Shown here one piece after another: positions 7,456 through 54,800 of a stretch of DNA of 64,000 nt. The first letter of the stretch is position 1; each line of letters opens with the position of its first letter. The stretch spans positions 16,313,424 to 16,377,423 of the forward strand of contig NC_085047.1 in the NCBI RefSeq assembly GCF_963662255.1, given 5' to 3'. A program made the position numbers and the translations under genes. The notes beneath the pieces were generated by a model, which had not been told where the DNA came from, did no database searches, and worked only from the letters and a program-made list of their open reading frames with translations. This DNA is from Cinclus cinclus. Lineage: Eukaryota; Chordata; Aves; Passeriformes; Cinclidae.

Positions 7456-8121
7456 ATGAAGCCAATAGCTTACCCTGCTTTCTCCATTTGCCTGGCTCTC
7501 ATTTTGGCCAGATTCCTTGGCATACACATCAGTTTTGTGAGAAGTCAGAAGAACCACACACTAATTTTCACTAAGGAAAACACAATTCGCAACTGCAGCT
7601 GTTCCGTGGCTATCCATGACTGTGATTACTGCCTGGCAAACCTGATGTGCAACTGCAAAACAGTGCTGCCTTCTACAATGGAAAAAACTACCTACAACAA
7701 CCACCTGACCATCTGGTTCACAGACACCTCTGGGCTGGAGATAGTCCTCAACTTCACAAGGGTGTGGGATTTGAAGCTGTCCTTCTGTGGCACCACTCCT
7801 CTCCCAACGGAATATTTGGCCATTTGGGGACTTAGAAAGCTCCGGGTAAACAAGGTCAAGGGACAATTTCCAGAGCAGAGCGTAACCATCTCCAGCAGCA
7901 GCAACAATGGCAAAGACTTGCTTGAGGTACACAAAAAAGACAAGCAAATGCTTGCACATATTTCTTTTCTGGATACCTCACTTTTCAATGGATATTCATT
8001 GCTGAAGTCATACAGTGTGGAAAACATCTCTAGTATTATGAAGCACTTTCCCAGCCTGCTGTACTTTGATGTTTTCTCTACTTCAGACAATGAGAGCTAT
8101 GTTGTAACATTCATTTACTGA
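7456..8121 (+). CDS. EPCIP: EPCIP (C21orf62), exosomal polycystin-1-interacting protein homologue
   Basis: An intact single-exon frame of 221 residues. The protein matches human C21orf62/EPCIP as I remember it: same length (about 219 in human), the shared core NCSC...DCDY.LANLMCNCKTVLP, the segment LTIWFTDTS, the segment LPTEYLAI, and an identical C-terminus SYVVTFIY. Residues 4-22 are hydrophobic and fit a signal peptide, so the product is likely secreted or vesicle-associated. N-glycosylation sequons occur at N33 and N46, with more downstream. The cysteine-rich block lies at about residues 47-67. I chose the ATG at 7456; a longer reading from 7441 would need a TTG start. The gene lies 2.9 kb upstream of PAXBP1 on the same strand, as in human. 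The human protein is reported to bind polycystin-1; its biochemical activity is not known to me. Confidence 0.93.
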   Translation: MKPIAYPAFSICLALILARFLGIHISFVRSQKNHTLIFTKENTIRNCSCSVAIHDCDYCLANLMCNCKTVLPSTMEKTTYNNHLTIWFTDTSGLEIVLNFTRVWDLKLSFCGTTPLPTEYLAIWGLRKLRVNKVKGQFPEQSVTISSSSNNGKDLLEVHKKDKQMLAHISFLDTSLFNGYSLLKSYSVENISSIMKHFPSLLYFDVFSTSDNESYVVTFIY

Positions 8122-32700: not shown

Positions 32701-33478
32701 GGTACCTTCCAACCCAAAGCATTCCATGATTCTGCCAAATTTTGTAGCTGCCAGTTTGGACTGGTTCACCTTGTGAGCCTGTTGCTGATTCCTGCATAGT
32801 GGCAAACTGTCTTTTGTATACAGTTCAAAAATTCTGGCTATTTACACAACCAACTAGATGAACCTGGTTTTGCCTGAGATTCAAGAGTAATTTTACTTTT
32901 ATCCAATGATCAGCTTAATTAAAAGTTTGCATTAGACATGTTACTGCTGGCCAGGTAAGCTGACTTGCTATGGGAACAGCAACAGCACAGGAATGAACAG
33001 TCTTCCAGTCTTGGTGCAGTCCTGTGTTTCAGTGTAACAGTTTGGGATTTAAGTTTTTGAACTCTCTTCTTTTGGTGGTGTGTTTCTAAATTTGAAACAA
33101 CTTTCTTCACCAGGTAAAATGGTAACTTGGTAAAAATTTTTATTGGAAGAGAGACATCCTATTTTCATAGCCAGTTCTAATTTGATTTCTGTCCTTCTGC
33201 TTTTTCCCAGCATTTAACAAATCTTTTGCCATTACCCTCATTAAGCAAATAGACTAAAATCTATTGGAACAACAGGAATATGAAATGTAAGGCTCCATAC
33301 TGTCTTCTGCTGGAAAATTAATCCATGTCATTGATTGTTCTGTCTCTGCCTCTTTTTTAGGGAGCACATCAAGCAGATCATAAAGCTTCTAGCAAGTATC
33401 CGAGCTCTGGATCATGCTGTTACTGTTGCAAATGATCATAATGTAAAAGAATTCAAGATTCTAATAGAAGGAAAATAG
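11002..33478 (+). CDS. PAXBP1: PAXBP1 (GCFC1), PAX3/7-binding protein 1, 18 coding exons
   Basis: I resolve 18 exons: 11002-11467, 12259-12387, 13939-14115, 15228-15449, 16008-16111, 16467-16687, 17627-17816, 21819-21942, 23911-24010, 24490-24605, 26992-27191, 28619-28763, 28911-29032, 29597-29673, 29938-30004, 31511-31657, 32043-32197, 33361-33478. They sum to 2880 bases (959 residues plus stop) and every junction keeps frame. The start [15 protein letters not shown] and the end [10 protein letters not shown] match human PAXBP1, remembered as about 917 residues; the extra length is in the Gly/Ala/Pro-rich part of exon 1. An acidic N-terminus (about 14-30), a basic [10 protein letters not shown] motif in exon 1, acidic clusters near 300, a charged helical region (about 435-560), and the GCFC domain (about 615-905) follow in order. 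The human protein is nuclear and links PAX3/PAX7 to an H3K4 methyltransferase complex in muscle precursors. Exon 5 ends in a GC donor. The gene is intact. Confidence 0.96.
16112..16466 (+). other. GC-AG intron (PAXBP1 intron 5)
   Basis: Exon 5 must end after the codons for NIPQ, because exon 6 resumes in phase 0 with VQPSQPAE, as in the human protein. The intron then starts CAG|GCATGT and ends CACTAG. A GT six bases in (CAT|GTATAT) would break the frame. All other introns of the gene, as far as I placed them, start with GT. Confidence 0.82.
17846..17870. repeat. Poly(A) tract in PAXBP1 intron 7
   Basis: Run of about 24 A shortly after the exon 7 donor. Simple homopolymer; the rest of the 4-kb intron shows only ordinary AT-rich sequence and the TA-rich tract near 19.6 kb. 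Confidence 0.85.
19552..19650. repeat. TA/CA-rich low-complexity tract in PAXBP1 intron 7
   Basis: Alternating TATATA, ATACATG and CATATA blocks, including TGTATATATATATGTAATAA and CATATATATACACATACATA. The tract is close to self-complementary in places, so it could cruciform or be length-variable. Confidence 0.8.
24628..25025 (-). mobile_element. CR1 LINE 3' fragment in PAXBP1 intron 10
   Basis: Starts with the reverse complement of a CR1 3' end (TATCACAGAATCACAGCTTG, then GGGTTGGAAAGGGACCTTAA), close to a consensus copy. It runs through CCAACCTGGCCTTGAACATT, CTCTGGGCAACCTGTGTCAG, and AGGCTAAACAATCCCAGTTC. It begins only about 22 bases after the exon 10 donor at 24605, leaving very little original intron between them. 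Confidence 0.93.
26585..26735 (-). mobile_element. CR1-like fragment in PAXBP1 intron 10
   Basis: Contains AGAATAATCTGGGTTGGAAG then GGGCCTGGAGATAAGC and later AAGCAAGGCCAGCTTTGAAG, all found in CR1 3' parts read on the minus strand. At about 26687-26722 there is a short direct duplication of the phrase CCCAGTATGTCACCAA. Confidence 0.7.
27340..27530 (+). mobile_element. Degenerate CR1 3' end in PAXBP1 intron 11
   Basis: Blocks such as CAACTGGCCATGGCAGTGGA, AACTAGGTGATCTTTAAAGT and CCCTTCCAGGGAACACTGGA, then GATGGTTCTATG, fit an old CR1 3' end on the + strand. More diverged than the other copies. Confidence 0.6.
30165..31088 (+). mobile_element. Truncated CR1 LINE with end of reverse transcriptase, PAXBP1 intron 15
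   Basis: From about 30165 the sequence matches the C-terminal part of the CR1 reverse transcriptase (blocks GATGATCTGGATGAGGGGAT and ACACCAAGTTGGGCAGTAGT). It continues through the CR1 3' UTR (CTGTGTCCAGCTCTGGGCCC, GAATTTTTTCACAGAAAGGA, GGTGGTGGAGTCACATCCCT) to a CR1 tail ending near 31088 (TTTTCCAGCCTAATTGATTC). It has no intact coding frame and is 5'-truncated. Confidence 0.93.
32470..32738 (+). mobile_element. CR1 LINE 3' end in PAXBP1 intron 17
   Basis: Reads ATATTGGGAAGGAATTCTTG, CTGCCCAGAGAAGCTTCCTG, GTTCAAGGCCAGGTTGGATG, and TTCCAACCCAAAGCATTCCA, then TGATTCTGC: a clean CR1 3' end on the + strand. Confidence 0.93.
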
Positions 33479-33935
33479 ACTTTTCCCACCACTCATTTTG
33501 AGCTTTAAAACCATTCCTGATGTGTAATTTATGTACATATGTAAAGTTTCTTAAAGTGTAAAGTATTGATCTTTGTTTTAATACAAAGTGCATTCTTATA
33601 TACAGCATCCTTAAAAATAAAAATCATTGATTTCATTGAAAACAAAAATGGAATCCCAAGGTTGTCATCTTTCCAGAAGCTAGATTTTTCCTCAAGTTCC
33701 TCAAAATCTTGCTCACAAAAATACTTTGTGCCCATATTCAGTGGTCATCTACTCCTGTTATTTGTTCCATGGTTAACTGGAATGTGTATAATAGATTCTG
33801 TGTAATACAATGTATGCATATATTTATACCACCATGTTGCTTTCACACTGGAGATAGAGATGTTGTACTGTTGCAAAAGCTTTTCATTTGCTAAAAAATA
33901 CTTATTTTGACAATAAAATGATCTTATTCTTGGTC
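33479..33935 (+). other. PAXBP1 3' UTR
   Basis: AT-rich sequence after the TAG at 33476-33478. It contains AATAAA at 33616-33621 and again at 33912-33917, the latter followed by a T/G-rich stretch (CTTATTCTTGG), a reasonable downstream element. A further AATAAA at 34834-34839 could support a longer form. The end of the transcript cannot be fixed without RNA data. Confidence 0.6.
33912..33917 (+). terminator. Probable PAXBP1 poly(A) signal AATAAA
   Basis: Canonical hexamer 434 bases after the stop codon, with a U/G-rich stretch just after it. An earlier AATAAA at 33616 is an alternative. Confidence 0.55.
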
Positions 33936-35150
33936 AAAAAGGCTGCTAAAACATTCACATATATGGAAAGTCACTACTTGAAGAGTAGAAGCACATTGAA
34001 GTAGATCCTGACCTTTAGAAAGCAGATGTGCACTCCAAGTGGAATAACTAAAACATGATTTGCCTTCAGCATATGGAAATCTTCCGACTGTTCTTCAAAA
34101 GGAAGATCTGGATCAGTGGTGAAGGATTTTTTTTTATGTAGGCAAACAATGAGAATTTGTGATTATTGTGCGTGTCTAGATGGTGGCACTTCCTAAGCTC
34201 CAAACACCTTTCATTTTGTAGGACTAATGGTTTACCTCTGGTTTCCTTTTCTAAGTTGCTTAAGTAGTGTCTAGATTTTGAGGGGGGTGGGGTGGGTTTG
34301 GGTTTGGTCTTTTGTTTGTTTTGGTTTTTTGGTTTCATTTTGTAATGTCATTCGTGGAACCTATTTCTTCAGGTTAGAGTGGCTGAAGATAGGGAGCAAA
34401 ATGAAAGTGAAAAAACCTTTGAAGCATTTATATTGTAGTAAATATTCAAATGTTACACTTCCCACTAAATATCATCTAAGGATTGTCCTAAAAAACCCAG
34501 GGTGTTCAATTTAAATGTGAAAACCACTTCAAAAATCTGTTACATACACGAGAGCACTAGTGACTTGATCTTGGGGTCCAAGGCAGGTAGACAGCTGTAA
34601 CAGCCTTGGGTTTAGAGATATTCTCCATGTGTGCCCAACTTTTTTCCTAGGAGACTCCTAGCAATTAATTTGCATACTGAATAATACTTATGCTTATGTC
34701 ACATGGTATAAATGAATGTATTAAACACATACCATTTGTAACGTGCACGCTTCCTTGGGACACTGGATAGTTGTTTTGAACAGTTGGGGTTGATGAAGCA
34801 CACTCAGAAATACCTGCTTTTAAAAATTGTTTCAATAAATTCATCTGTCAAGGGGTTACTGCAGTGCAACTTGGTAGGCTTTGTTCCTTTAGGAAGGTAT
34901 TGAAGGAAATGATGTGGGTGTTGGTTCTGGTTGACTATTCCAATACGTCAGAAAAAAATAATCTTTTGAGCTGGATTTCTGAAACGAACACAATAGGATG
35001 AACATTGGAATTCACATACCTACATAAATCATAGTTTAGATACTTGAAATACCATTGCAGTTGTAGTTGCATGATTTAATAGTGACAGATTGGATCTTTC
35101 TGTGCTAAACATGTTACTGATTTCAGTATCTTGAAGAGGACCTGAAGGGA
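33936..35150. other. Spacer after PAXBP1
   Basis: No gene. Holds a GT-rich low-complexity stretch at about 34278-34335 (GGGGTGGGGTGGGTTTGGGT and repeats of TTTTGGTT). An AATAAA lies at 34834. SYNJ1, which follows PAXBP1 in human, is not seen here or anywhere else in the window. Confidence 0.5.
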
Positions 35151-35199
35151 GCCTGTAAGAGAGCAGGAGAGGCACCTTGGACATGGGCTGGAAGCGACA

Positions 35200-35447
35200 G
35201 GTAAGTGTCCATTGGAGCTGAGGGAGTTGTCAGTTGTCTTTGTTATTTAGACTGTTGCTGTTACTGTTGTTTTCTTCTCTCCTTCCTGTTTTCCAGCAAA
35301 TTATTCCTATCTCAACGCATGATCTTTACCTTTTGTGTCCCCAAATCTCCTGCCTTGGGGAAGGGGAGAAGTGAGCAAGTGGCTCATAGTTTAGAATGGT
35401 TTCAGTGGGAGCAGTAAATCTGGAAGTACCATTCCAAAACCAAGACA
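35200..35447 (+). mobile_element. LTR 3' part of an ERVL-like element
   Basis: Contains CCTATCTCAACGCATGATCT, then a GGGGAAGGGGAGAAGTGAGC block, and ends AAACCAAGACA at 35437-35447. These are the + strand counterparts of the LTR family seen at 5992 on the minus strand: AAACCAAGACA differs by one base from the reverse complement of TGTCGTGGTTT. The 5' side of the LTR merges into unrecognised sequence, so its start is approximate. Confidence 0.6.
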
Positions 35448-37200
35448 GCCTTGATTGGGTCCCAGTGTGAGGCACAAGGAGGGCACACCCCACAAGAGTG
35501 GGTTGGAAACAAACTTGATCTCAGTGTTTGCTGTATTAGGTCCAGAGCCACTGGTCACAATGGTGCTTGGTCCGTTCACGTGGGCTTGGTACCTAACCCT
35601 GGCTCTATTCCTGTATGTGCTCCTCGGGGTGACCTTTTACAGAGCAGGGACAAGGATCAGCATTTCTTTGTTGCTGTCCTGTGGGATATGAGTTTATGAC
35701 ATGATAACATCAAGGGCAATGAGGATGCTCTGGGATGTGTATTCAGTGCTGCTCTCCTGCCCTTACTTCAGCACTACCTTTGGGAGCCCATTAATAACCG
35801 TACCCAGTCTGGGGGGGACAGGGGAAGGAGGATTTTTCCCCCTTTCTCCCCCTCTTCCCCCCCTTTTCCTCCTTCAGGCCTGCTACACCTCCAAGAAGGC
35901 CATTCAGAGACCTGTACCAAGGGGGAATAGTCATGAGTGGCATGGAATGTGCCAGAAAATTGGCCAAGTTTTTAAGGAATTCTCTGCTCCAGTGGTTTAG
36001 GAGTTCACCCCTGAACAACTACGGGACTCTGATAAAGTGACAGAATATTTGCAAGGAGAAGGCTGTGGCCACTCAAGCCATGAGCAGCTGACTGCAGTGT
36101 GTTGGGCCCTGGCTACTCTTCATGGGACACTGGTGGTCAGTAGCCAGCACCCTCAGGGGAGGAGGAGGAGGAAACGGAGCAACAGGCACCGTGGCCACAC
36201 TAACTGCAGCTGAACCAGGGGAACAACCCGTGCTGGGAACAGTCACCCCTGCACAGAAGAAGGAATCCAAGACAAAATCAGTTGTTAGTGAGAGATGGCA
36301 AAGTGTCTTGTCTGTGGAAAGACTGTCCGAGGACCTGCAGCAATTTAAAGACTACTAGCAGTGATTAAAAGAAGTGTCCCACACCCCACCAATTGAGCCT
36401 GGAGTCTCTGTTACTGGGAGCAGCAACCTCCTGCTTGAGAGAGGGTGAACACCATGAGTAACCTGTGGTTTTACCTCCATGATTATGGAGAGGACGTGAA
36501 GAAGAGGGATGGAAAACCCACCTCTGCCCTGGCAGCACAAGTACATGAGCTAATGGGAAGAACATAATCCTTGAAGAAATGCCTCAAGGAAAATGCCTTT
36601 CCAGTTTCCTGTGGGCAAGTGCTCAGACACAATAGGAAGGCTGATGTTACTTTTGATCCCGTTGAAGGATTCCAGTTCCTGTTTACCATAAGTGAGCAGT
36701 GAGTACCATGACCAGAACTAGAAGGACCCTGTCTCCTGCCAGGTGGAGGATAGGGACAATCTGATAGCCTGGCTTTAATGATATATTGGATATAAGGCTT
36801 TAATTGACAATGGTGCACAAAGGACTCTGATGCCATCAAAATATGCAGAATCCTTCAGTATTTCTGGGGTGAAAGAGGGATGCCAACAGTGACTGTGCTG
36901 GAAGCTGAAGTGAGCCTGACTGCAAACAAATGGCAGAATCACCCCATTGTGATTGGCCCAGAGGCCCTGGACATCCCGGGCATGGATTACCTCAGGAGAG
37001 GGTATTTCAAGGACCCAAAAGGACATAATTGGGCTTTTGGGATAGCTGCTGTGGACATGGGAAATTAAACAGCTACAACTCACACAGAAAAATGTAAAGA
37101 AGGAATTGCTGGACTCACCCTTCTCCTCACTGCCTATCAGTGTACCACAAACACTGGGGCTATGCACTCTTCTTGCCAGCTGTATGTAGGGTCTCCTACA
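35448..37200 (+). mobile_element. ERVL-like internal remnant (gag to protease), degenerate
   Basis: Broken retroviral-type internal sequence on the + strand, directly after an LTR end. The part at about 36770-37070 matches the ERVL protease/pol border region: a protease-like segment with an aspartate-to-asparagine change in the usual D-T/S-G active-site triad, then a segment with DYLRRGYFKDPKG (about 36985-37020). The part before it is probably gag, by position. Stop codons and frameshifts occur throughout, and reverse transcriptase, integrase and env are not recognisable. It is a dead copy with no coding capacity. Confidence 0.75.
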
Positions 37201-37639
37201 GTCTGGTGAGTCCACCTGCCAATTTGAAATCTCCAAAATCCCCCAGAGTAAGGTCCTAGAACAAAAAGAAAGGGCTGGGCATCACCCTCCACTTGCAGCC
37301 TGTGCACACCCTGGTGCTATTCCGTCTCCTTCTCTATGTCATTTATCATTCTTACCCTCTTACAGACCCAAGATCCCTAACAGTTTATAACTGCTCCCAC
37401 ATAACAGTATCACAACAAAAAGCTCGTGCTTTTACCTTCCTTGTCATTGTTGCTCAGCTCCACGTGATGGCGGCAGTGTAGTTGCAAAATATGTAAATGT
37501 CCTGATTCTCTAGAGGGAATGAAGTGTGCACATCCCAAGCTGAAATTGTCAGTGCTGGCGAAAATCAGTGTGTCAGGACAGAAAATTTGTCTGGCCTTCA
37601 GATTCCATTTGCAACCCAAAATTCATATCATGGTCTAGA

Positions 37640-38636
37640 AGCATTCACTCCCTCTTATGGCTGGTAAACTGCTGTTTCCTGGGAAGGAAAACCTGGAAAG
37701 CCAGTGGTTTTAAGTGCTGATCATAGGCTGCCCACTGGAGGTGAAGGCCAGCAACAGGCTTTCCTGCCTGGCACCTGTTGTGTTGGAGCAATCCTTGGAC
37801 ATACTCAATTTTTGAGCTTAGCCTGAAATTTCCAAAGTGGGGTCCAAGAACTGAGTGACAGGACCATTCCTTTGGAAATAAAGAACATAGTGCCAGTGTT
37901 GCTGGTGCAGATCACAGGCTTCCAAGGAGACATAAAGGCCAGCAAGATCTTCCTGTCCTAAAATGTTTTTTGTATAAGCAACCTTTGGATGTGTCCAAAA
38001 TTGCAGGAGGTATCCTCAAAGAGAAAAACAGTTATTTTACATGAAGGAAAGCACCTAGACCATGCATTTCACTAGGAGACAATTTAGCCAGGGGAGGTAA
38101 AGACCAGCAACCCTTCTTCCCTTTGCAGTTTGGATGAATTTGTCAAGAGGTAGTGTCCCGAATGTGAATCGCATTACCTTTCCTTGGAAATATAAACAAG
38201 CTCATCCTGCACGTGATTGTCTGTCCAGTGAAGGTAAAGACCTTTCTGTCCTGGCACCTTTCTCTCTTAGATCAATCCTAGGACAAATTCAGTATTGGAG
38301 TGGTAGGCAAGTTTTGGCTGTAAGCTCCTGGAAAAGGATGGCTGTGCTTTTACCTGGGAAGGAAAGCACCACGTGCCAGTGTGGCAGCTGCAGAGGAGAG
38401 GCTGCCTCACAGAGGTAAAGGCCAGCAACCACTTTCTGTTCTGGAACCTCTTGTGTGGGACCATTTCCTGGATGTATTTGACTGAGCAGAGGTATCCAAA
38501 TTTGTAGGAGGGAGAGAGAAAGGGGGTGAAGCAGCCCTCCTGGGAAAGGAGAGCACCTTGCCCCAGTGTTTTTTGTACACATGGTAGGCTGCCCAGGCAA
38601 GATAAATGACAACAAAACCTTTTTTCTTGGGACTTT

Positions 38637-38669
<33 letters not shown>

Positions 38670-39300
38670 CGGAGAGAGTAATTCTGTGCCTTATTTAATT
38701 TTGAAGACTGAATTTAAATTTTGCATATGCCCTCCAAAAAGTGAAATGGTAGTGTCTTTCCTTGTGAATGAAAATATGTAGCCCCAGTGGTGGCTGAAGT
38801 CAACAGGCTGCTCAGGAAAGCTAAAAGCCAGTAAGTTTGTTCTCATGGGGCCTCCTGTATAGCCTCAATTTTGATATGAAGGTTAAATTTAAATTTTAAA
38901 ATATAAATGTATTTAAATTTTGGATGTGGGCTCCAGAAAGTGGTTGAGACTGCCTTTCCTTGGGCAGAAAAGCACTAAGCTGGCAGTATTGATGGAGCAG
39001 ATGACAGTCTGCCAAGGAGAGAGAAGGACTCGTATCAGCTTTGTGTTCTGGCATCTTTTATTTGGGAGCAATCCCTGCATGTCTTTAATGATGGTGCTCA
39101 GATTCAAATTTTGGAGGAGATATTCCGAAATTTATGGCAGCACATTCACCTTTGCAAGGAAAGCACTTAGTCCTCATGGTGGTGGTGCAGGTAAGAGCTG
39201 TCCAGGAGAGGTAAAGGCCAGCACAAACTTTCTGTCCTGGCACCTTTTGTTTGGGCTCAAAGCCCAGACGGATTGCTTTTTGGAGGTGGTAACCAAATAG
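37640..39300 (+). repeat. Tandem ~185-bp repeat array, forward half
   Basis: About nine imperfect copies. Each carries the phrase GGTAAAGGCCAGCAA or a variant, near 37743, 37935, 38100, 38235, 38417, 38603, 38822, 39022 and 39212. It is followed by CTGTCCTGGCACCTTTTGTG-like and GGAGCAATCCTTGGATGT-like blocks and preceded by CCTTGGGAAGGAAAGCACC-like blocks. Spacing ranges from 135 to 219 bases, mostly 165-200. Copies differ by many substitutions and small indels, so the array is old. It carries no consistent reading frame. I do not recognise the unit. Confidence 0.82.
38639..38669. repeat. Poly(T) tract inside the array
   Basis: About 30 T in a row, inside the unit that starts near 38603. It accounts for the longest unit spacing (about 219). 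Looks like a homopolymer expansion or a small retro-insertion tail. Confidence 0.85.
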
Positions 39301-39359
39301 GGGATGTTGTCACCTGAAGACTATGAGTAAGTAATTTATTTTGATGTATCTGGTTTAAT

Positions 39360-40965
39360 AACCATGATCTTCCAGGACAAAGACAAATTCCCCACCAACA
39401 CTGAGACTATTGTACATTCCTTCCCAAAGAAAAGTAGTGACATCCTATTTCAGAATCCCACCTCTTGAATTTGCAGCTGAGCTCCAAAATTGAGTATGTT
39501 CAAGATTTTCTCCCACACATAAGGTTCCAGGAGAAAATCCTCTTGCTGGCCTTTATCACCCCTGAGTGATCTTTTCTCTGCAGCAGCAATACTGGAGTTA
39601 GTTCTGTTCCATCCCTGGGGGAAGTGCTGTCATCCTCTTTCAGGAAACTAACTCTGAAAATTCCTTCAAAACTCATTATATTCAAGGATTGCTCCTCCAC
39701 AGAAGGTTCCAGGACAGAAAGCTGTTGCTGGCCTTTACCTCCATCAGACACTTGATCACCTAGAGCACCCCAACTGTCAAAAAGTGCTTTCCTCCCCCAG
39801 GAAAGGTACTGTCATCCTCCTTCAGGAGCTCATTTACCAGTTCTGCAGCCTACCTGCAGAATTACAGAATACATCCTGAATTGCTCTCACACAAAATGTG
39901 CCAGGATGGAAAAACCCTTCCTGAGCCTTTACATCCTATGAACAGCCTATCATCTGCATTGCCAGCACTGGGAGTATGTGCCTTCCTTTCCAAAGAAAGC
40001 TACTGCCCTACTTCTTCAGAAGCCCCTCCCCTAACTTTGGATACTAGCTCCAAAACTGAATACAAATGGGGATTGCTGTCATAGGAAAAGTGCTAGAAGA
40101 GAAACCTATTGTTGACTTTTATATTCCCTGGCTACCTCCCATTTCCAACACTGAAAGTGGGATCAGGCTCTGTCCTTTCTATGGTTAGGTATTGTCTTTC
40201 TTTTTCACAAGAGCTTCTCTGAAAATTGGAGCCAGGCTCCAACATATCCTGGATTCTTTCAGTCCTGAATACATCCAAGACAGAAAGTTGTTGCTGGCTT
40301 TTACCACCTCTGGGCAGCCTTTCATCTGAATCACCAACACTGGCACTATGTGCATTCCTTTCCAAGGAAAAGGTGCTGTCATTCTCTTTCATGAGCTCAA
40401 CACTGAAATGTGAAGCTGAGCTCCAAAACTAAACATGTCCAGGGACTGCTCCCACACAACAGTTTCCAAAGTATTTCTGGGCATCTCATCTGCACCACCA
40501 GCGCTGGGGGGCTAAGTGGTTTCCTTCCTAAGGAAAGGTAACTTGATCTTCTTTCAGGGGTCCACTCCAGAATCTTGACACCACACCCAAAAGGTATGGG
40601 ATGGCTCCTACACAAAAAGTGCCAAGAAAGAAAGTTGATCGTGGCTGAGAATTGCCATAGGCACCCTGCAAATCTGCACTACCAACACTGGAGCTGGGTG
40701 CTTTCCTTCCCAAGGAGAGGTAGGTAATGTAATCCTCTTTCATGAGTCGACCTCCAAAATCTGGTTATCTCCCCCAAACTGGAATAGCACTGGGGATTGC
40801 TCCCACAGACACAATGCCAAGAGAGAAAGACATTGCTGGCCTTAACCTCCCTTGGGCAACCCATCATCTCCACACCAACACTGTGCCAAGGAAAGGCACC
40901 ATCATCCTCCTTCAGGAGCCCACCACACATCACAGTATTTTCTCCCTCACTTGCAATGACAGCCT
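39360..40965 (-). repeat. Tandem ~185-bp repeat array, reversed half
   Basis: The same unit in the opposite orientation. TTGCTGGCCTTTA-type phrases, the reverse complement of the forward core, lie near 39543, 39724, 39920, 40110, 40290, 40640 and 40832, with partial copies near 39372 and 40475. Spacing is mostly 165-200. The blocks TTCCAGGACAGAAAG and CACTGGGAGTATGTGCCTTC are the reverse complements of the forward blocks. With the forward half it makes a degenerate palindrome about 3.3 kb long, centred near 39.3 kb. Confidence 0.82.
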
Positions 40966-43200
40966 GCATAAGAAACTTTAATGCAAGTGATTAATTTGCC
41001 TTTTACAAACCTAGAAACTCAGAGCTGAATAGTACTACATGAAAACCTGAAGAGTTCACAAAGGGAGTCACATACACAAAATCTTACTTTTTGAGGTCAA
41101 CACAGATGTTCTGCCTTTTTAGGGCAGAGACAGCTCCCAGTTCTGTCCTTAATGCACTGCTAGAGATGGATGGTGGGAGCTGGTTTGAACAGGCACAAAC
41201 CCTCTGATGGCAACTTTAAGGGCATACAGCCCCAACACTTATTTTACTTAAAAGTCTCTTGCTCTGTACTCACAACAGATCTGAGCTACACTACACAATT
41301 CCTGCCAGCCTGGGTTGTAGCAGAAGGGAAACACCTAAAGGACAAAGCCTCCAAAAGAATGTCCCCACACACAGTTCTGTTGTTGCCCATCAGTCTGAGA
41401 TTTCCAAGCAGTCAAGAGTCCAGATTTTTATGTAAGAATTTGTAAGTCTACCACAAAGCTGAAACAGCAGATTTTACAAATGAGAAGACCAAGATAAATT
41501 CTGGCATTCTGTATAGCACAAAGCACAGAACTTCATTCAGTCCTTCATCTGCTATTTTCATTTGCATGTAAAAGGTTTACTGTAATTCTTGTAGAAAGAG
41601 GAAAAAGGACATAAAAGCACAGGAATTGTCAGTGTCTTTAAAGTCCTTATAAAAGCCTGTGAAACAATTCACAGGACAGATGTTCAACAAGAACAATGAC
41701 AGGTCCATAGGCTTTTTGGGATAACATCTGGATAGATGCATGTTAGCAGTTTCTTGGTTTTATGGGTAAGCAGGACTGATTTACTTCAGAGACCAGAATA
41801 AGAGTCTGAAAATTATAGGTACCTTTAAAGACTCCCACACCACATGTGAAAAATGGACCTGCCCAACAGACAGTTGTCAGTGATATTTCCCAAGCTCCCA
41901 TGGTCTGCTGTTAATACAAATCTAGGGATTCTGTGACTTCTGTTGTCTTTTATCCCTACACCTGTCCCCTGGTTTTTAACCATCTACTTTGTTAAGAGTA
42001 GTAATTTCACACAGTTGCTGATTATCTTGCATTCAAGTAAGTGTTGCAAATATGGGTAGTTATAATTACAATGACCAATTATGTCACTATACCAACCAAC
42101 AGTGTTATAACATCTGCATTTAAATACCTTCGCTGCTGATTTAATACACCATTTTTCACTGCCACTCAGAATTATCTGACAGGCCTGTATAAGTGCAACC
42201 TGGTGAGGCTCCACCTGAAGGACTTTAGAAGATCCTGCATTAACACAAATCAAGTGTATTTTTAACAAGAATCAAAGTAACAGGAATGAAAATTCAGAGC
42301 AGTAGAGGCTGTTCCCTGAAAATCTCTTTCTTATTTCCTAGAAATGTTGCCAGGCTGACATGAAATGTATCTTCTGAATTATCACCACTGGGCCAATAAA
42401 TAAAATTGCAATATGATTTCGAACTTCTGAGTCTCTCTCATCACCAAATACTTTTAAACAAAATCACGGCAGTTCACCTGAAAGCTTGAGATTTATAGCC
42501 TTTAACAAGTTAATGAAGTTGAATAGATAAAAGCTCTGGGGTTCTATTTTGATTACCAAGTCTTGTTTCTTCCCAAGTCTCTCCCCTCCATCTCCTCTTG
42601 CACAATAAACATGAAATAGTAGATTGTAAAAAATTAGGAAACCTTGTTAAAGCATCATACTAAATTCTTACTAGACTATTACCATATATCAAGAAAGCCT
42701 TAAATGTTATTTCTCAAGTTAACAAGATACACTCAACTTAGTCGTACTGCAAAATTATTCTCAATCATTACTTATTTGTTAACCATTTTTAGGGTTTTTA
42801 TTTTAAATTCTGCCTGTCTTGGCTCTGCCATTCATATGAAACAGCAGGTGTTCCACGTGGCAAATTTAATCTTCAGTAGGTTGAGAAGAACAATCATGTA
42901 TTTAAGAATATGAAATTTAAAAAAAAAAAAAAAATCAGTAGAACAAAATACACTCTACTGAGGAAATATTGTGAGTAGCTTAGTAGATACCCAACTTTGG
43001 TACAATCACCTCTCTAGATTACTAGATTTCAGCTTTGTCTGAAGAATCCTAAGATAGTGGTTTGGGCCCATTAAACTTATAAACTACATAGAGACTATTT
43101 TGGTACCGCTTTCAGAACTGTTTGAGCAGTACTACATAAATGAATAATGCACCAGTAGAGACTTTCACAGCAGAGGACTTACACAAAATAGAAAAGCCTT
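40966..43200. other. Spacer between the array and the BACH1 3' UTR
   Basis: AT-rich unique-looking sequence; no second LTR matching the AAACC(A/C)AGACA terminus found. Short A runs near 42916. No gene recognised. Confidence 0.45.
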
Positions 43201-44324
43201 TGTAGAAAGGATAGTGGTTTTTATTGTAGACTTAGAAAATACTGAATTATGAAAAATACAAAATCAACTGTTGTAATTATCTGTTTATTTTACAATCTGT
43301 ATGCCATCATACCCTTATGGCTTTAAGACAATCTGTCCAAAGTATTTTATAACATGCTTTAACAAAGTATTTTACAATTTCAAAATTGAGTATTTCTTCA
43401 CTGGAAGGAAAAAAAAATAAAACCAAACTCCAAAAAAAAAATTTTCCTGAGAATTCTGTATCATAAAATTGTCATTCATTCGTTAACATTTGCAAGTTGA
43501 TGATATAGGCTTATAGAAGTCAACATGCAACTTGTAGGTCTATGGTATTAAATAAATATTTAAAAAATTATTTAGATGCAGCTGGTCAGGCAAAAACCTA
43601 CCCTCAAACTTCACCTGCAGCCAAGTGTGTCAGGGCTCTGGGCACTGGATAATATCCCAGACAGCCACTCCCTACAAAGATGCTCCACCTTGTTATGACA
43701 AGGATTTACCCCAGGGAATTCTATTTCCAACTATGTGCACTATTAGGACAATGCTTTAATGCCATTGTCCACGTCATTTCAGAATATCACCAGCTTTAAA
43801 AGTGAGAGTAGTTATGAACAGTAGAGGTTTGGGCTTGGAATTTTCTTTTGATTGTTTCTTGTTGGTTTGCTTTTCATATAAAATGGAAACATAAGAGCAA
43901 AATGCTTCCCAGGGTGGCAGCCTAGGAGGGATACAGGATTAAATTAACCAGGAACCTACAGAAACTGGAGGAAAAGCCCAGAGAGCTTCATAAAGTAATA
44001 TATATAAAGGATCATCATATCTCAATGACAGCAATCTAAAAGAATTTCAATTCAATTACCATGACGTCTGCCGTGCAGTATTTATTTCTGAATTTCAATT
44101 ACTGCAAGTATTGTGATTTATACAAGCTATGATCCATACTTTTTCCCTTACAAAGTAATGATATATGATGAAAATCCAAGAGATTTTACTAGAGATTTGA
44201 ATCAACTTTCAGTCCCATAGGTGAGGTAGTGTAGTCATTTGTGTTATGTGCTGGTTACGAGAAGTCCTGTTGAAATCTGTCAATTTTAAAATTTTTGTTT
44301 TAAATAAGTGACTTACTGTATTTA

Positions 44325-44332
44325 TTAATGCT
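44325..44332 (-). promoter_or_regulatory. miR-155 8-base seed match in BACH1 3' UTR
   Basis: TTAATGCT on the + strand gives AGCATTAA on the transcript, an exact 8-base match to the miR-155 seed. Six-base AGCATT matches lie at 43750-43755 and 45515-45520. BACH1 is an established miR-155 target in mammals. Confidence 0.6.
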
Positions 44333-45286
44333 ATGTTACCTATGGATGGTGGGAGGAGGAAAAAAAAAGAGCCTTGCCAAGAACAAGTTTTGTCTCACTG
44401 CAAGGTAAAACTGAAAAGCAGTATTTACAAGGGCCTTGCTTAGTTGCTGCCTACTGTACATGCACACGAAGACACAAAAAAGCTAATACACATTCTGAGG
44501 TAGGAAATGAAGAATTCCACTGGCTTGTACAAGATTCTTCATGTTTTGTAAACCAGCAAACCCAAAGTTTTCTGTGGTGAGGTTCAATACTTAGTTCTGG
44601 TGTGAGAATAACATCAAAATACCAAAGCATCATTGGTATACAATATGCATCCACTGCTATGTAAAAATCTAGAAAATGGGGATTATTTTCAGTAGCTGAA
44701 TTTCTCCCTCACAAAGTAATAAAGGAAATATCTCCAGCTCATTTCTTCAATAAACTTTTTATATATCTATGCTAATAGCACAAGCCATTGAAAATACACT
44801 ACAGGTTTAGCCATAAAGCATTCTGAAGACTGATTCTGAAATAGAACTTTACTGGTCCCAGTGATCAGAGAACAAATATTTGTAACTTACTTTAGGCAGT
44901 TAGGCACTGAAAGAAAAAAATGCGGCGCCTGAATACCTTAAAGAAAAAAGTCTGTCCTTAGACTTTGACAATACTTTGATTCCAACTTGCCACATACAAG
45001 CAGCAAGCTTGAAGGTGCTAGGACAGGAAGTCACAATACAGCAGTGAGTTTTAATAAGCCTATGGGATTCAGATGCCAGAGGATCCAATGCACACTCATC
45101 CAAGAACTGCACCGTTCTTGATGTTTCACATGTCTGCCTTCCACAGCACGTTATTCCTCCCACTAAATTTAGAGAAGAGAGCAGTATGTGGCAGCACCTC
45201 TGCTGCTCCAGTTCTTTTAATTCTGTGCTACAGAGACAAGGCAAAAGCACTTATTCAATAAAAGCCTACTAATCAATTCTACTAGT

Positions 45287-45306
45287 AGTAGTAGTGGACT
45301 ACTACT
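45287..45306. repeat. Short inverted repeat AGTAGTAGT-GG-ACTACTACT
   Basis: A 9-base perfect stem with a 2-base spacer, made from AGT triplets and their reverse complement. It lies in the probable BACH1 3' UTR. Confidence 0.85.
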
Positions 45307-45874
45307 TTAATACAGTAAAAGTCTTCTCTGCCACGGGGAAGGGGCTATTCCAGAATCTCCTCATCCTGTCATGTTACTTAGCCCATCTACCAAATTAACA
45401 TTTATAGAGCTATACACGCTTCTTAAGGTTTGTCGACCGAGAAAAAAAAGTCTCAGAAGAATTCCAGGTACAAAAGTCATTGTGCATAAACAGCTGTCAG
45501 GAGGCTTTCCTTAAAATGCTGAGTGGCATTAAGTACTGTGGCATAAATCAGAGTAGGCTGCTCTATACTTGAACAAGACTTCCTCATAAATAAGCACCTG
45601 TGCATGGAATTTGTACTTTCCAATACCTTTCCTGAACCCTCCTTGACATCACCACACAGAAAAAGCACCAAGGCTGGCGCATACAAATTGCATTCTGGAA
45701 CTACACAGAGCAAACCCAAAGCTTGCAAAGTAATAATGGTGACCATGTAATTGTCAACACAGTTTCAAAAGATTAAACTTTTCTCTTTTCTCTCACTTAG
45801 TAAGTTACTTTCCAATAACGCTCAATCCCACTTGTAGTTGCAATGTTGAGAGGCTGGCAATGGGAAGGAGAGAT

Positions 45875-48800
45875 TCACTCATCTGTAGTGCATTTGTCAG
45901 TCATTTGCTGGCAGAAGTCTGTGATGCCACTGCTCTGCCCACACGGTTCCACAAGCGACGTCTGCTCCAACGTTCTGGCAGGAACTGGATGCGGTTCTTG
46001 TACTCGATCGTACGTGGCCTCGCACGCGCTCTCGACACACTGGTAACAGGAACTCTGCTCAGCTGTAGGTGTGACACCTGAAAGACCATTTGCTGATTCT
46101 ACAGATGCTGGTACCACAAGCTCACTATCAGATGGAGCTGTTTGTTCTCTTTTTGGGAACAAAAATGAGAGCGGACAATCTGAAGAAGAATATTTTGCAA
46201 GTATTTGTATTTGCTCTTGACTCAAGGCTGCTTCCTTACACACCTGCTGGCAAAGTCCAGTCAGATTCTGCTTTGTCTCACCCAGAGTTGATAAAATGTG
46301 GTTTCTTTCCTTCAGCAAATTCTCCTTCTCATTTTGCTGCAGAAAGAAAAACCGTGTTTTAGTCTACATTTTCATAAAAACTAGGACTTAAGCTCCTCTC
46401 AAAGCTAAAACAGGACTTTGAATACTCTGGTCTGCTGAAACAGAAGTAATTTGACATTAACAAAGTAAGCAGCAACACCATCAAACACATATCAAAAGGC
46501 CAACCCTAACCTCTCTGGAAGTATCATCAGCTAAGCTATTTTATGTGGTTTTCAGATACGCAGCTTTTTCCAAACTCATGCTGGCAGACAAAGGAGTAAT
46601 TTGGAGTTACTGAACAAATGAAACATTTGTTGCACTTACTGTAAATACTGCTGAAGCACTAGTTCTAGAGGGTAACACAAACCATTACCAATGATTCAAC
46701 AAAACACAAAGCAATCTTCACAGAATTCTGTATTTTAAAATTGAAACGCTGAAAATCAAACATTACGTTTTAATTATTGATACTATTCCACTAGGTGAAA
46801 GCAACTTCCATTCTCAAGAAGTGCCAAATCCACTATAGGATAAACAGGGGAGTTAAGTATAGTTCCTAAATTAGATAGAGACTTTAGGAAAGGTAAAGTA
46901 AGATGTGCTGAAGAATAGACAACCTAGAGATAATGTAGCAGGATTGTCCAAACACATGGCAACAAGCAGGATAGCAACTCACTAATAAATAACAAGTAGA
47001 AAATATAATTTAAGCTTTTTTTTTTTGGCTTCAACATTGTGAATTTTTCTGAGGCTTCTGACAGAACTGGCTAAAGATGAAAAGACACTGATAACTGAGA
47101 TGTCTAATCATGGAAACAAGCAACATTTTGAATAAAGAAAAATGAGGAAGTGGCAAAGAAGGATAGGGAACAAGCAAGACCATCATGAAGAAGTCGAATG
47201 AAAAGGACAAAGAACCCAAATCCAAACATATTGCAACACAAACTTTTTAAATTCTGTAATTAATTAAAAGAAAACACAGTTTTCAAGACATGCAAAGTTT
47301 GAAATAGTTTTCAAGTTCTAATCATAGGGAGTATGTGTTACAACTGCTGTTATGTCAATTCACTCCTGGAAAGTTTTATTATTTTCACTCCTCCTGACAT
47401 CCCCTTTTTGCAGAGAAACCTCATACTGCAACTTCTACAACTTCTTTTTGAAAGAACTGATTAAGTTTAGGCAGCATTTGGCAAGAGGAACAGTTGTTGC
47501 CAGTTCTTTTTGTCTAAAATTAGTAGAAAGAGGACTTTGAGAATTAATTTGTACTTGTCAGCATACTAGGAGCAGCTGTTAATCATAAAATATGCCACAC
47601 TGGAAAGGATCCATCAGAGTCACTGAATCCAACTCCTGGGCCTGCACAGGATCGCTTAAGAGTCATACCCTGTGCCTGAGAACTTTGTCCAAACACTCTT
47701 GATCTCAGCCCTGGGGAGTCTGCTACAGTGTCCAACCACCCTCTGGGGGGGGGGGGGGGAGGGGGAAGAGACTTTTCCTAATATCCAACCTAAACATCCC
47801 ATGACTCAGCTTTATGCTGTTGCCTTGAGTCTTGTCACTGGTTACAGAGAGAAGAGAGTGGCACCTGCCCCTTCTGAGGATGTTGAATGTTGCATACAAA
47901 TAAAGATATTATAAAAGAAAGGCCGTATAAAACCAGGCCTTGCTCTGCTGAATTACCAGTTAAGCCTGTAAGTTCCCATAAGAATCAGAGGAATGAAAAG
48001 TCAGGTAACAAAACAACCTATTCTTGTAGAGAATAGCTGCACTGTTATAAGAGATCTATCCCATGAGGATCTACACAGAAGTGTGAACACCTGTAGATAG
48101 AGAGCATCTTAACATGTACACACACAAACACTTTCTAACCAATGAATTGAGTGGCAAGAAAACTATTAGCCAAATGGAATTAAACACAGAAATCTATGAA
48201 AACCGTATAAAATGAGTTATGTGAATAAAGAAGGAGCTTTTCTGCATGAAGAAATTGAGTCCCATCTGCATTATTGCAACAGTTGAAGACCTCAATGAAG
48301 TCTCCCCTCAGTCTCCTTTTCTCCAGGCTAAACAGAACAAATGCCCACAGTCATAAGATTTCCCCCCTTCAGACCTTTCCCCATCCTCATGACCCTTCTT
48401 TGGATGCTCTCCAATGGTTTATTAAGCCACTTTTTAAACCGTGGTGCCCAAAACTGCACACAATGTTCAAGGTGAGGCTGCCCCAGTGCAGAGCAGAGCA
48501 GGACAATCCCCTCCCTTGCCCTGCTGGTGATGCTGTCCTGGTGCCCCCCAGGACATGGATGTCCCTCCTGGCTGCCAGGGCACTCCTGACTCGTGTTCAG
48601 CTGGCCATGGACCAGGAACACCAGGTCCCTTTCTGCAGTGCTGCTCTGCAGCCCCTCATTCCCCATTCCATACACACAGCCAGGGTTGCCCTGTCCCACA
48701 GCAGAATCCAGCACGTGCCCTCGTTAATCTTCACCCAGCTGGTCATTGTCCAAGTCCCCAGTTTGTCCAGGTCTCTCTGCAGGGCCTCTCTGCCCTTCAG

Positions 48801-51800
48801 GGAGTTGACAACTCCTCCCAGTTTCGTGTCAATGGCAAACTGCCAGCGTGTTCCATTGAGTCCTGTGTCCAGGTTGTTAATGAAGATGGTGAGGAGCACA
48901 GGGCTCAGGATGGAGCCCTGCAGAACCCCACCAGGGACCAGTGCCAACCTGATGCCATCCCAGCCACTGTCACCATTTGTTCCTGACTCATGAGCCAGTT
49001 CCTCTCCCACACCATGATGTGTTTATCCAGCTGTGGGCTGGACATTTTGTTCAGAAGGGTTCTGAGGGAGCTTGTCAAAAGCTTTGGTGAAGTTCAAGAG
49101 GATTGCATCTACTGGCTTCCCTAGATCAGCTGGGTGGGTTACCTGTCATACAAGGAAATCAGGTTTGACAAGCAGAACTTCCCCCTCATGGAGCCTTGCT
49201 GCCTGTGTCCAATTCCTGCATTGTCCTCCAGGTGTTTTCAAATACTTATCAGAATCTTCTTTCCCATTCTGTTAGAGGCACTCAGCTGTGTAGCATGGAC
49301 TAATGAAATTATCTGGACTGGTATTTAAAACAAACATGAACATTCAGAAATAGTTATCCTAGCATAAATTTCTCACTCCCCTTCTGAAGCTGTTGACAGG
49401 TTAATACATCTAAATAATATTGTTTTATTTTATCAGCATTATACTAATACTACAAAGTAATGTCAGTTAGTTTTGAGGTTATAATAAACAGAGTTGAATC
49501 TTCTGCTAAAGAATGTACTTAGCTCACACACCTCACCCTGATATAACATATATAACAAGATCTCAATTACATTTTTCTTGGAGCAATGACACATCCTCCT
49601 CCTCAGCTACAGAATCCTCAGCAAAGTAATGCTTCTTGAGACCAGCTGTCCTCTACTCTGCTCCCCCTTGCAAGTACCCTCATTTTAAAAGTTTCAAAGT
49701 GAAAAATCAAAGGATGGGTCAGGTTGGAAGGGACCACAGTTGGTCATCTGGTACAACCTCCCTGCTCAGTCAGGGTCATCCCTTTGTACAGGAGAAAGTA
49801 CAAGGAATGTGAATATACACAGTCTCTGAAAGAGCTGTTTCTAACAAGTCAACATCTTCTTAAGTAGCCCTTGTGTATTCTCAAATATTGAACATTAGTG
49901 ACCAACAAGAACACCCAGATTCACCTAAAAAGTCAGTAAGCAAAGACTATATGGGGAGGTAAAAAAATTACTTCATCAGTACAGAAGATTAAGAGACATC
50001 ATCAAAGGTAACTCTCCCAGATAACAGATTCAGCATTGAACAATATTTTTCTTCAATATAAGTAGAACTTAACATAAGATTTTCAGTTTTACAGAATCAC
50101 TTGGTAGGGGAGGTACCTCAGCAGGTCTGTAGTTGACCGGCTGCTCAAAACGAAGTCAGAAATCAGGTAAGATCAGGCTGCTCAGGGCTTTGCTCAGTCA
50201 TGCCACAAAACCCTCAAAGACAGGGCATGTACAGCCTTACAGGGTAAACTGCTTCACTGACTCCCTGTCCCCACTGGAAGAAAAAAAACCTTTCTTTATA
50301 TTCAGATGAAATCCTCCCTTGTAATTTAAGGCCACGTCTCTTGTTCTCTTGCTGTCAAGTACTCCCCCCAGGAAGTCTGAAGATCTTCCACCACCAAAGG
50401 CTGTGTAACCTCAAGGAATGCCCGACAAATGTGGGCAGGTAGCCATTAGGTCTCCCCATCCCTTTTCCAGGCAGAAGCCACATTTATTCTGACTCTCACC
50501 ACAGAACTATTTCAGGCCTGGCCATCCCAGTGGCCTTCACCCAACTTTGCTCCAGCCTATCACTGTGCTCCTGGAACTAGGAGGGGTGAAAACCCAGGAA
50601 AAGATTCAGTGTTACACATGCCAAGACAGGTAACAACCACTACCCTCCTGTTGCACAGCCCAGGACACTGATGGCCTTTTCTTTAGTCTGGACATATTGC
50701 TGATCCATGGTCAGCCTGCCCAGGCCCCAAGGTGCTTGTCAGAAAAGCTACTTGCCAGCTGTCAGTCTCCAGCCTCTAGCCAGGCAGGGGTCAGTCTGTT
50801 CCAAATATAGGATTTTTCCAGGAAACACACCACAAGCATCTTCTGAGAGAAAAAGAAACTGAAGCAGCACCAAACAGAAACTAATACAAGACAACATGCT
50901 GCACATACTGGAAACCAGGATGAGGAATTCCACCAAAAGGTATTTCCTAACTGGTAGTACAGAGTATTATCTACTCGTCAAGAGTTGTCAAACTATAGCT
51001 ACACCACTCTATTCCCTCTCGAAGTCACGTTACAGATGTTACCATGAGAAGACCAAAGTCCAAAAGGTCTGAGACATGACTGACCCACAGAACAGGAACA
51101 AGGCAGGTGCCATCATGCATGAAGCAACCTGGATGTACCACACACAGCCCTTCTGAGACATCTCTTTTCTTCTACCCACCTAGAAAATCACACCTAGACA
51201 GATCTTAAGATTTCTGTATTTGTGTACAACTTACACAAATATGATGATCTGTGGCTATCAGGCATAGTCAACAGCTCCAAACAGGGTCTCTTCAGGTATT
51301 TCTTAAGAAACTTATCAGCACAGTAAAAAAAAAAAAAAGTAACTGAAACATGTTTGTGCCTAGAGAATGATTCATATAACTCAGACCTCACCTCACAGTT
51401 CTCAAGATTCAACACTCATTATCTAGGTCTTGCACAGTGTTACCTGTCAAACAGCAGACATTCAGTCTGTTCCAGCACAAGTCCATAGAAAAGAAAGAAG
51501 GATATTATGTTATAATTATTAGGCTCAAACAACCACATGTCTAATCTTGCAGATCAACCTTTAATTCCCTGCCCAAGTATTGCAAAATATCGACAGAGTT
51601 ACATAACAGAAATGACAACATGATGACAAAACCAGGCAAAAAGTTCTGAAATGTCAGAAATGCAACTTCTCTCTCCAGTAAGGATATTATTAATACATTC
51701 ACCTGATTACCTCCCTCACAAACCACCTTCTTCACTGAGCATGGCCTGCTCTTTCAGCTCAGGGCTCTATGGCACTGCACTCTCTCCTTCAAAACCGATC

Positions 51801-54800
51801 TCCTCACTGCAGAAGTAGGAGTAGATGCAGTGAAAGATGATGATCATGGGAAAATAAATTTCCAGCACATGGCACTTGGCTCTAATTTTATTTTCCTTTT
51901 CACTTTGATGTCAAAAAAGATGCAATATGACTGCTATGTTCCAGCTGATGAAGATACCAAATTCAGGTACACCAAGCCTCAAATGCTACATGAACAACAA
52001 TAAGAATACAGTAGTCCTAAACAACTGAACTGTTTTGTGCACGTGGTATGGCTGACTATGAAACTGAGATGAGAGAGTCAAAGACTTATTTTTCTGAAAA
52101 GCCACTCTATTTTATTGCCATTGCTATTTTTGCATAATCCTAACCTCAGATTATCTACACTTCTCTTAAACTACATATTTATCTTTTTTTACCTTCTTAA
52201 GGAGGAGAAAATATATTAACAGATGGCTTCAGAGAAATCTGGATGCATCAATTCCTCAGCTACAATCTTGATGCAACTGCTAAAAAGGCAAGCAACTTCC
52301 CAAGTTCTTCTGTATCTTCCACCTTTCTGCAGGGGTCTTATTTTTAACATTCAAGACTCAGGAAACAGTTTGCCAGGCCATGTTGACATGTTCCAAGAAC
52401 AGTACTTACACAACTAACAATTGTGCAACTGCAAACTTGACCATGAGCAATACCATGAGCTGAAGAACAAAATCTCAAAGCAAGAAAGGGGAAGAGACAA
52501 AAACAGTGTAGGATAACAGTCTGGGAAACATTCTGTACAATTAAATTCTAAGCTTATAGGTTTCAGAAACATAATTGACCAAAAATTATGCTGTGATGCA
52601 TGTTTTATTTGAATGGAAACAAGTCCGCAGAAGGAAAGAGGTTTGTACTTTAGAGCAAGGTTCAGAAAAATCTAGAACTGCTCTATCAAGAAGTTATACA
52701 ATACTGATAAAGTTTTTTAAGCTGGAGTAGAAAAAGTAGTAAACAACCTCACTCTCAATCTACTGCCAGATAGACAGTCAAGATGTTTAGACAAAGACAT
52801 GAGAACAGCAATGAATATTTATACATACCAGTTTTTCAATTTCAGACTCAAGATTTTGTATGCAGTCAAGTTTTCTCTTGCGACATCGCTGTGCTGCAAT
52901 TCTGTTTTTACTTCGTCTTCGAATATCATGAATACAGTCCAATTGTTCAGGAGTTAATTTATGCATTTTCAGAAACGACTGGAAGTCATTTCTGGAAAGT
53001 GAAATAATCCTTTGTGCATTAAACGGCAGTTTTACCTAGAATGAGAGATACACTTGTAAATCCAAGGTGGAACTGATATACACAAACACCAACAAGTCAA
53101 GTTTCCATTTTAAGGATTCTTTACCACACAACCCATCTTTCTTCCTACATCTCAGAGACAAGAGCAAACTAATATAACCATCAGATGATGGCATAAAATC
53201 CTGGGGATTCAATTACAGGAGCAAGAGAATATTTGCACATTTACACTAGATCCTTACATGCATATTCAGAGTAGGATAAAAGCTTTGTGCATCCAATATG
53301 CAGGTGATATACTCTAAGAAGTGGACTTACAGTTTGGTGAGGTACTAAACAGGTATCAAGACCCACTAATGTAGTCTAAAGTTTTCTCAAGGCTGCTATT
53401 AAGACTGCATCCTTCATACATTTTTATACCTATGCTTTTTTTTTTTCCTGCAGGAAAAGTTCATCTGAAACAGGCAGTTCCTTAAAATACAGAAGTTAGA
53501 ATATTTGTCTTTTCTTTCTTAGTGTTGGAGATGAGAGAGGACCAGGCTTTTGCTACTGTTATATACCTGAACTACAAAAGCATTTGAGATCACAAAGTGT
53601 TAATACTGAAAAACATTTACCTTTACAAAATAATCACTATGATTTTTGAGTATCCAACTAAAGACACTTTATTTTAATCCTCACATTTGAGTATAGTAAG
53701 TAGCAGAATATGTTACCTTACTGTGGTGAAAGATCTGAAAACAGTTTAAAAAGAACACAGACAAATCTTTTCTCTGATTTGCTACTACAGGTGATGAACA
53801 GGCAAAAAATAATAAAAAACCCCAGAGGACTGTTCTCAGCCATGAAGCCATCTTCTCCATTACATAAAGGTGAGGAATATATTTAATAAATTCTGGCCTT
53901 TATTCTAGCATTCCATGTATTGATGGCAGGCTCCACTTATGTTCAGTCTCAGTAAGGCCCTGCACCTTGAAAACATAAAAACCCTAGTGCTTTAAGAACA
54001 ACTAAATTTTTGTAACACTGAATGATCCCTCATGCAGGATTACACTGCAATTCTATGATTCTAAGAACTGAGGTAGAAATTGCTCCAGGTATATCTTTTA
54101 GGATTAGACTCCTCTTGTATGATGTCTGTCTAAACCATAACTAAAGCAGTAACAAAGAAAGGAAGTGCCAGATAATTACTGCAGCTGGAAAAACAAAAAT
54201 CACCTTAGTCTTGGAGAAGGAGATATTATTAAACAGTCTTAAATACATAGTCACTGGACTTCACATTAAATCTGAAGTATCATTTATCTCCCACCTTCAC
54301 CTCACAGCCCAGAATAAAACCAAGAAAACTGGTAAGTTTCTATTATACAAAGGTTCCAAGAAGTTTAGTTTTCTTAAATCTAACTGAAGCAGACAAAAGG
54401 AAAAAACAAAAAATCTAAAAATGAACCTTCATGCCTTGATTTAAGACTCAAACTTTTCTGACAGTTGTTCCAGAAAAAAATCTTAAAATACCTAATGTGT
54501 AAGCATCTAACACTTCAGTATCTGACCAAAAATAGCTTCATATTTTAATTCAGTCTCCCTGAATTAACAGTGACCTTCCATATAAACCTCTGAATGGTTA
54601 TTTAAAGTTTCAGTTCCAGACTTTTTAAAACAAGCAGCCACAAAAAAAAAAAACAAAAAAACCTAACGAACAAAAAAAACCCCAAAACAACAAAACACAG
54701 AAGACTCAGAAGTGGATGTTCGACTAGGGCCTTAGGAGACTGGGAAACAAAGGATACATCAGGATGTTCTTACCTCACATTCTTGTTCTCTTGCTGAACA

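Follow-up and report, generated by a model that had tools for sequence, protein, structure and literature searches.

Within the 64,000 nucleotides of the Cinclus cinclus genome analysed here (hereafter the window), positions 37062-40926 hold about 20 copies of a unit of about 190 bp in 3865 bp, arranged as three blocks whose orientation runs minus, plus, minus (X, F and R). In our judgement, this locus is probably a decayed satellite-like array whose middle block, of about nine units, was reversed relative to both of its sides by one inversion. The arrangement itself supports this reading, because a plus block between two minus blocks is what one internal flip gives. That a single inversion, and not two fold-back events, produced the switches is our inference, as is the absence of a present function.

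Three orientation blocks at a gene-order breakpoint

Complete units measure 137-219 bp, run head-to-tail with a roughly constant period in each block, and yield a consensus of 190 bp. Block X (37062-37616, minus strand) comprises about three degenerate reverse units, with unit starts at 37602, 37436, 37287 and 37120. A 190-position profile that draws solely on units F1-F8 and R1-R8, aligned in wrap-around mode to 36000-37674 (minus strand), scored 100.4 for this block with 367 of 542 positions identical to the consensus, whereas 120 draws of the same length (60 positions elsewhere in the window, both strands) scored no higher than 27.1; within the block, 37129-37270 was found at E 8.4e-6 by a profile made from forward units only and at E 9.8e-4 by one made from reverse units only. 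A left spacer of 58 bp (37617-37674), not clearly recognisable as unit, leads to block F (37675-39318, plus strand), which begins with a partial unit and continues with nine units starting at 37740, 37931, 38096, 38233, 38414, 38601, 38820, 39021 and 39210. The last of these is cut at unit position 109, and the wrap-around score of the block, 1206.5, falls to 1196.1 if the alignment is carried on to 39384; a T-rich run of 36 bases (38634-38669, plus strand; Tandem Repeats Finder, 94% matches) interrupts the sixth forward unit. Beyond a central spacer of 65 bp (39319-39383) with no detectable unit similarity, block R (39384-40926, minus strand; score 1336.2) consists of eight reverse units and a half unit, with unit position 173 at its left edge and 94 at its right. 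Each orientation can be recognised from the other: with the forward-only profile, E-values for the eight full units of block R range from 1.1e-12 to 2.9e-29, and the reverse-only profile recovers every one of the nine units of F, some of them only over part of their length, at E 1.6e-6 to 5.3e-30. When the initial unit profile, before hits were added to it, was run over the 64-kb window, it gave no match at E < 0.5 beyond 37.06-40.93 kb, and the unit occurs at one locus in this window. Our literature search returned nothing under the name Tgut191A or for the core motif.

A preliminary description of this DNA had proposed a giant palindrome starting at 37640, with about nine forward and eight or nine reverse copies and a switch at about 39300-39360. 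Profile searches and wrap-around alignment agree with these counts for blocks F and R and locate the switch at 39319-39383, and the opposite-direction diagonals for which a dot plot had been suggested are present, the best self-match pairing 38106-40606 with its own reverse complement (E 1.4e-117). The array begins at 37062, however, and its three blocks, which show no significant forward/reverse mirror in the registers tested, do not make a single palindrome. A reverse copy seen at 37530-37625 does consist of reverse units but is not stray, being part of the roughly three-copy block X.

The array lies between two genes that point towards it. On its left, EPCIP/C21orf62 (7441-8121, plus strand; Pfam PF15137) is followed by PAXBP1 (plus strand), whose first exon is represented by an ORF from 10846 and whose internal exons lie near 27 and 32 kb, with a stop codon ending at 33478; the upstream exons match 8ro2_PX, PAX3- and PAX7-binding protein 1. 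The part at 33365-33478 (plus strand), up to the stop codon, we take to be part of the last exon from its match to human C-terminal peptides. The right neighbour is BACH1, represented in part by exons within 45875-56141 (minus strand) with its stop codon at 45875. Over 92% of its length, the ORF at 54759-56141 (minus strand) matches Cinclus cinclus BACH1 isoform X2 with 100% identity; this record is without one stretch and hence ranks eighth by E-value, the full-coverage matches above it reaching 95% identity (best 120 of 348 matches); the ORF at 45875-46318 equals, by eye, the C-terminus of the same isoform. PAXBP1 and BACH1 are therefore tail to tail, with 12.4 kb between their 3' ends, the array inside this gap and no further gene recognised between 33478 and 45875. 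The array is probably, though not certainly, outside both 3' UTRs, because AATAAA or ATTAAA signals precede it from each flanking stop codon. GC skew in 2-kb bins is positive in all bins from 12 to 40 kb and negative from 40 kb on, a change of sign at the array that fits the transcription of PAXBP1 and BACH1 towards each other.

In human, the order of the region is given as MAP3K7CL, BACH1, GRIK1 ... SYNJ1, PAXBP1, C21orf62, OLIG2 (PMC12652779), so that GRIK1 to SYNJ1 separate the two genes and the PAXBP1-BACH1 junction is absent. The array thus sits at a gene-order breakpoint relative to human, which bears out the earlier remark that gene order changes here, the comparison with human alone assigning the change to neither lineage. 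Neither SYNJ1 nor GRIK1 was recognised within the 64-kb window, and among the papers listed by a literature search, titles and abstract openings gave nothing on this junction in birds. The assembly, bCinCin1.1, is described as built from HiFi and Hi-C data (PMC11747308). An assembly artefact is unlikely by inference, as a fold in the assembly would give near-identical arms and F and R are only about 56% identical.

Possible fragments of other elements lie nearby. An open frame of 86 aa (36808-37068, plus strand) ends in a stop codon that overlaps the left edge of the array (37062) by 7 bases. The protein collection contains 81 relatives of it, and wherever an organism is named, the entry is a hypothetical protein from a bird (stork, swallow, crane, pigeon); Pfam gave no match, and presumably the frame resembles a piece of retroviral polymerase or protease. 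An insertion at this place may have cut the array. On the other side, 48597-49010 (minus strand) holds a reverse-transcriptase-like fragment with an RVT_1 match below the curated cut-off (E 0.037), which we take to be probably CR1; this CR1-like piece at 48.6 kb gave no match to the first unit profile at E up to 10.

Near star-like divergence without a significant mirror

The 16 units from which the consensus was built are 72.6% identical to it, and leave-one-out means are 71.7% for F, 73.5% for R and 67.7% for X. Among themselves the units are far less alike: mean pairwise identity, computed without block X and the two partial units, F0 and R9, is 53.9% within F, 59.6% within R and 56.2% between F and R. 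At averages of 54-60% these units are not homogenised in the manner of a satellite array, but the near star-like pattern is compatible with a past homogenisation that stopped. A tree of 20 units does not separate forward, reverse and X units, which are interspersed and mostly sit on long tips, with moderate support for F4-F9 (0.87), F6-F7 (0.81) and one deeper branch (0.92). With unit and column rates removed, similarity is slightly higher within than between orientations, though not significantly (p 0.065). The star is imperfect because a few pairs group moderately and because within-orientation pairs are slightly more alike. Since X units are more diverged than those of F and R, block X could be the older one.

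A check for mirroring of forward and reverse units about the centre had been suggested, and it revealed no significant mirror in the registers tested. In the identity matrix, none of the mirror registers 7 to 12 stands out in a permutation test (best of six, p 0.32), and after rate correction the mean residuals for registers 6 to 13 range from -0.79 to 0.08, with no significant signal. The highest raw mirror excess, 0.035, belongs to the outermost register, 14, which contains four pairs and is outside the permutation test on registers 7-12. At the expected register the excess is 0.011, barely below the 95% limit of the simulated null, 0.012. Simulations of exact-register inverted copies (300 per setting) show what these values would mean: for copies made after 0.04 substitutions per site, an excess of at most 0.011 occurred in 0.3% of runs and one of at most 0.017, the value of the best tested register, in 4.7%, whereas for copies made after 0.02 substitutions per site the proportions were 28% and 59%. 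An exact-register inverted copy made after about 4% divergence would have shown itself, so that any copying of the forward arm into a reverse one would date from a time when the units were nearly identical. Because any later copy of this kind would leave a mirror signal, the blocks presumably formed at that stage and decayed afterwards. A mirror palindrome spanning whole arms is accordingly not supported by the identity matrix, the rate-corrected residuals, the several registers or the simulations, although a very early copy would escape them all.

Decay has been uniform along the unit. Identity to the consensus ranges from 0.63 to 0.82 per 10-bp bin, the best 15-bp window has a p of 0.15, and the consensus is without CpG; such evenness is as in neutral decay. 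A conserved protein-binding core at GGTAAAGGCCAGCAA, the core sequence given in the preliminary description, was considered and rejected, bins 1-10 (0.80) and 11-20 (0.72) being nothing special beside 0.726 overall. The mean K2P distance to the consensus is 0.33. Neutral rates of 2-3e-9 per site per year would place the age of the units very roughly at 110-165 million years. At that age other birds should share the array, and we therefore predict that it is common to them.

How might the blocks have arisen?

We envision a scenario whereby a nearly homogeneous array, its units all facing the same way, built up where the 3' ends of PAXBP1 and BACH1 face each other, a single inversion within it turned a segment of about 1.7 kb with small losses at the segment ends, and turnover then ceased, so that the units would have decayed independently to about 72-73% identity with the consensus. 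The preliminary description had held that simple tandem duplication does not suffice for this structure, which we support, and that an inverted duplication or a fusion of arrays is needed; something beyond tandem duplication is indeed required, but an inverted duplication of a whole arm is not demonstrated, and a single flipped segment explains both switches.

The ends of the blocks bear on this scenario directly. They fall at unit positions 177 (X right), 126 (F left), 109 (F right), 173 (R left) and 94 (R right). From the right end of X to the right end of F, the gap is about the length of the 65-bp spacer, which fits an inversion. If the inversion is undone, the left ends of F and R do not meet, and the restored second joint therefore requires that roughly 80-140 bp were lost. 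Forced alignment of the central spacer gave p 0.215 as the tail of F9 and p 0.720 as a continuation of R; the left spacer gave p 0.955 as the start of F and p 0.010 as a continuation of X (two positive controls reached z of about 12). Local scores of the left spacer with the wrap-around profile fall within the null, and block X may extend slightly into it, as the p of 0.010 suggests. Counting against the inversion are the two restored joints, which are not both in phase, the two spacers, which it leaves unaccounted for, the greater divergence of X, the slight and non-significant excess of likeness within orientations, and the few groupings in the tree.

The main rival, which we regard as unlikely, derives F, the central spacer and R from a decayed DNA transposon of the foldback type, with long terminal inverted repeats that consist of tandem repeats of about 190 bp, X being the remnant of a second copy. 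Tetris (TIR-220) of Drosophila virilis is such an element, with terminal inverted repeats of up to 1,735 bp that contain repeats of about 220 bp (PMC4079207), and the long inverted arms here, of 1644 and 1543 bp, with opposite units of about 190 bp inside them and a non-repeat centre of 65 bp, reproduce its layout. The outer ends of the arms, however, stop at unlike unit positions, 126 and 94. Shared terminal domains were sought and not found, for which reason we do not file the locus as a foldback element: a comparison of 33479-37061 and 37601-37700 with 40927-45870 revealed no similarity outside the units at E <= 1. Near the three pairs of ends there is no exact target-site repeat of at least 5 bp, though one could have decayed at the age of the array. 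Block X would moreover call for a second event, and among the papers listed by a literature search, no title or abstract opening names such a bird element.

Somewhat more doubtful still is a fold-back duplication, in which one arm was copied backwards after a break or template switch in a homogeneous array, giving a true palindrome, with X stemming from a second event of this kind. The strong anti-diagonal of the self-comparison would be expected from it, and if the central spacer is counted as the lost tail of F9, F ends at about 174 beside the start of R at 173, a symmetric fold-back centre. That spacer is nevertheless without unit similarity, the registers and residuals reported above carry no significant mirror signal, and two events are needed in place of one. 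The mirror would be invisible if the copy predates about 2-4% divergence. The junction phases do not decide between inversion and fold-back.

A functional locus kept by selection, whose switch-spanning transcripts form a long hairpin RNA or which has a role in chromatin, is very improbable, and we have seen no evidence of function. Predicted RNA folding is strong relative to 20 dinucleotide shuffles for each stretch (39000-39700, z -3.86; 38700-40000, z -7.05), with z of 0.54 and -0.77 for two control stretches of about 700 bases that match the shorter stretch only. Strong folding is nevertheless expected from any inverted repeat, and the arms pair poorly: F and R are about 56% identical and share no exact inverted match longer than 18 bp. 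The even conservation leaves no protected core, and there is no Rfam match at gathering scores within the window. A known RNA family or a tRNA-derived unit is likewise rejected, no tRNA being found in the whole 64 kb, as is a coding origin: the longest ORF with both start and stop codon that lies entirely within the array (38920-39300, 126 aa) has no relative in the protein collection, none of 11 candidate matches reaching E <= 1.

Comparison with known inverted arrays

Inverted blocks within satellites are already known elsewhere. Among the systems compared, the array fits best the orientation switches within satellites such as those of human, whose arrays, including GsatII at 12p11.1, are described as having units of about 188-200 bp and internal inversions (Warburton et al. 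2008, PMC2588610). Like these GsatII-type arrays, one of which has complex multiple inversions, the dipper array combines units of the 190-bp class with switches of orientation; unlike the human arrays listed there, which are mostly tens to hundreds of kb long (PMC2588610), it spans 3.9 kb, is intergenic and has units only about 73% like their consensus. With Tetris it shares two opposed arms of tandem repeats of about 200 bp around a middle part. Tetris is reported to have outer flanking domains in its terminal inverted repeats, repeats in 69 contigs and target-site duplications in three complete copies (PMC4079207), whereas the dipper array shows no flank domain or target-site repeat and has a third block. 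In Tribolium madens, satellites with macro-dyad symmetries have opposed arrays able to form hairpins (PMC13081366). There, too, arrays meet in opposite orientation, but as described the units are of about 110 bp, the arrays multi-megabase and probably (peri)centromeric, and the inversion sites conserved (PMC13081366).

A further parallel comes from Atlantic cod, in which inverted tandem arrays of hAT-MITEs are reported at inversion breakpoints (PMC12368964). The cod arrays (units of 167-169 bp, 1.3-5.8 kb, inverted) resemble the dipper array in lying at breakpoints, here a breakpoint of gene order; they occupy breakpoint pairs of known inversions (PMC12368964), whereas the dipper window shows one side of a rearrangement, and neither event is dated. 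It is conceivable, if rather improbable, that the rearrangement joining BACH1 to PAXBP1 in the songbird lineage took place through this array: opposed copies here and near SYNJ1 or GRIK1 would have recombined, and the flipped block would be a second product. If so, the locus would correspond in birds, as a fossil, to the breakpoint arrays of cod, and the divergence of its units would serve as a relative clock. Should the dipper also carry the unit close to SYNJ1 or GRIK1, this would be a case in which one can still read the repeat that lay behind an old change of vertebrate gene order. If the array is neutral, it would be a fossil in which unit turnover stopped at about one time, and might thus provide a rough clock and a predicted marker common to other birds.
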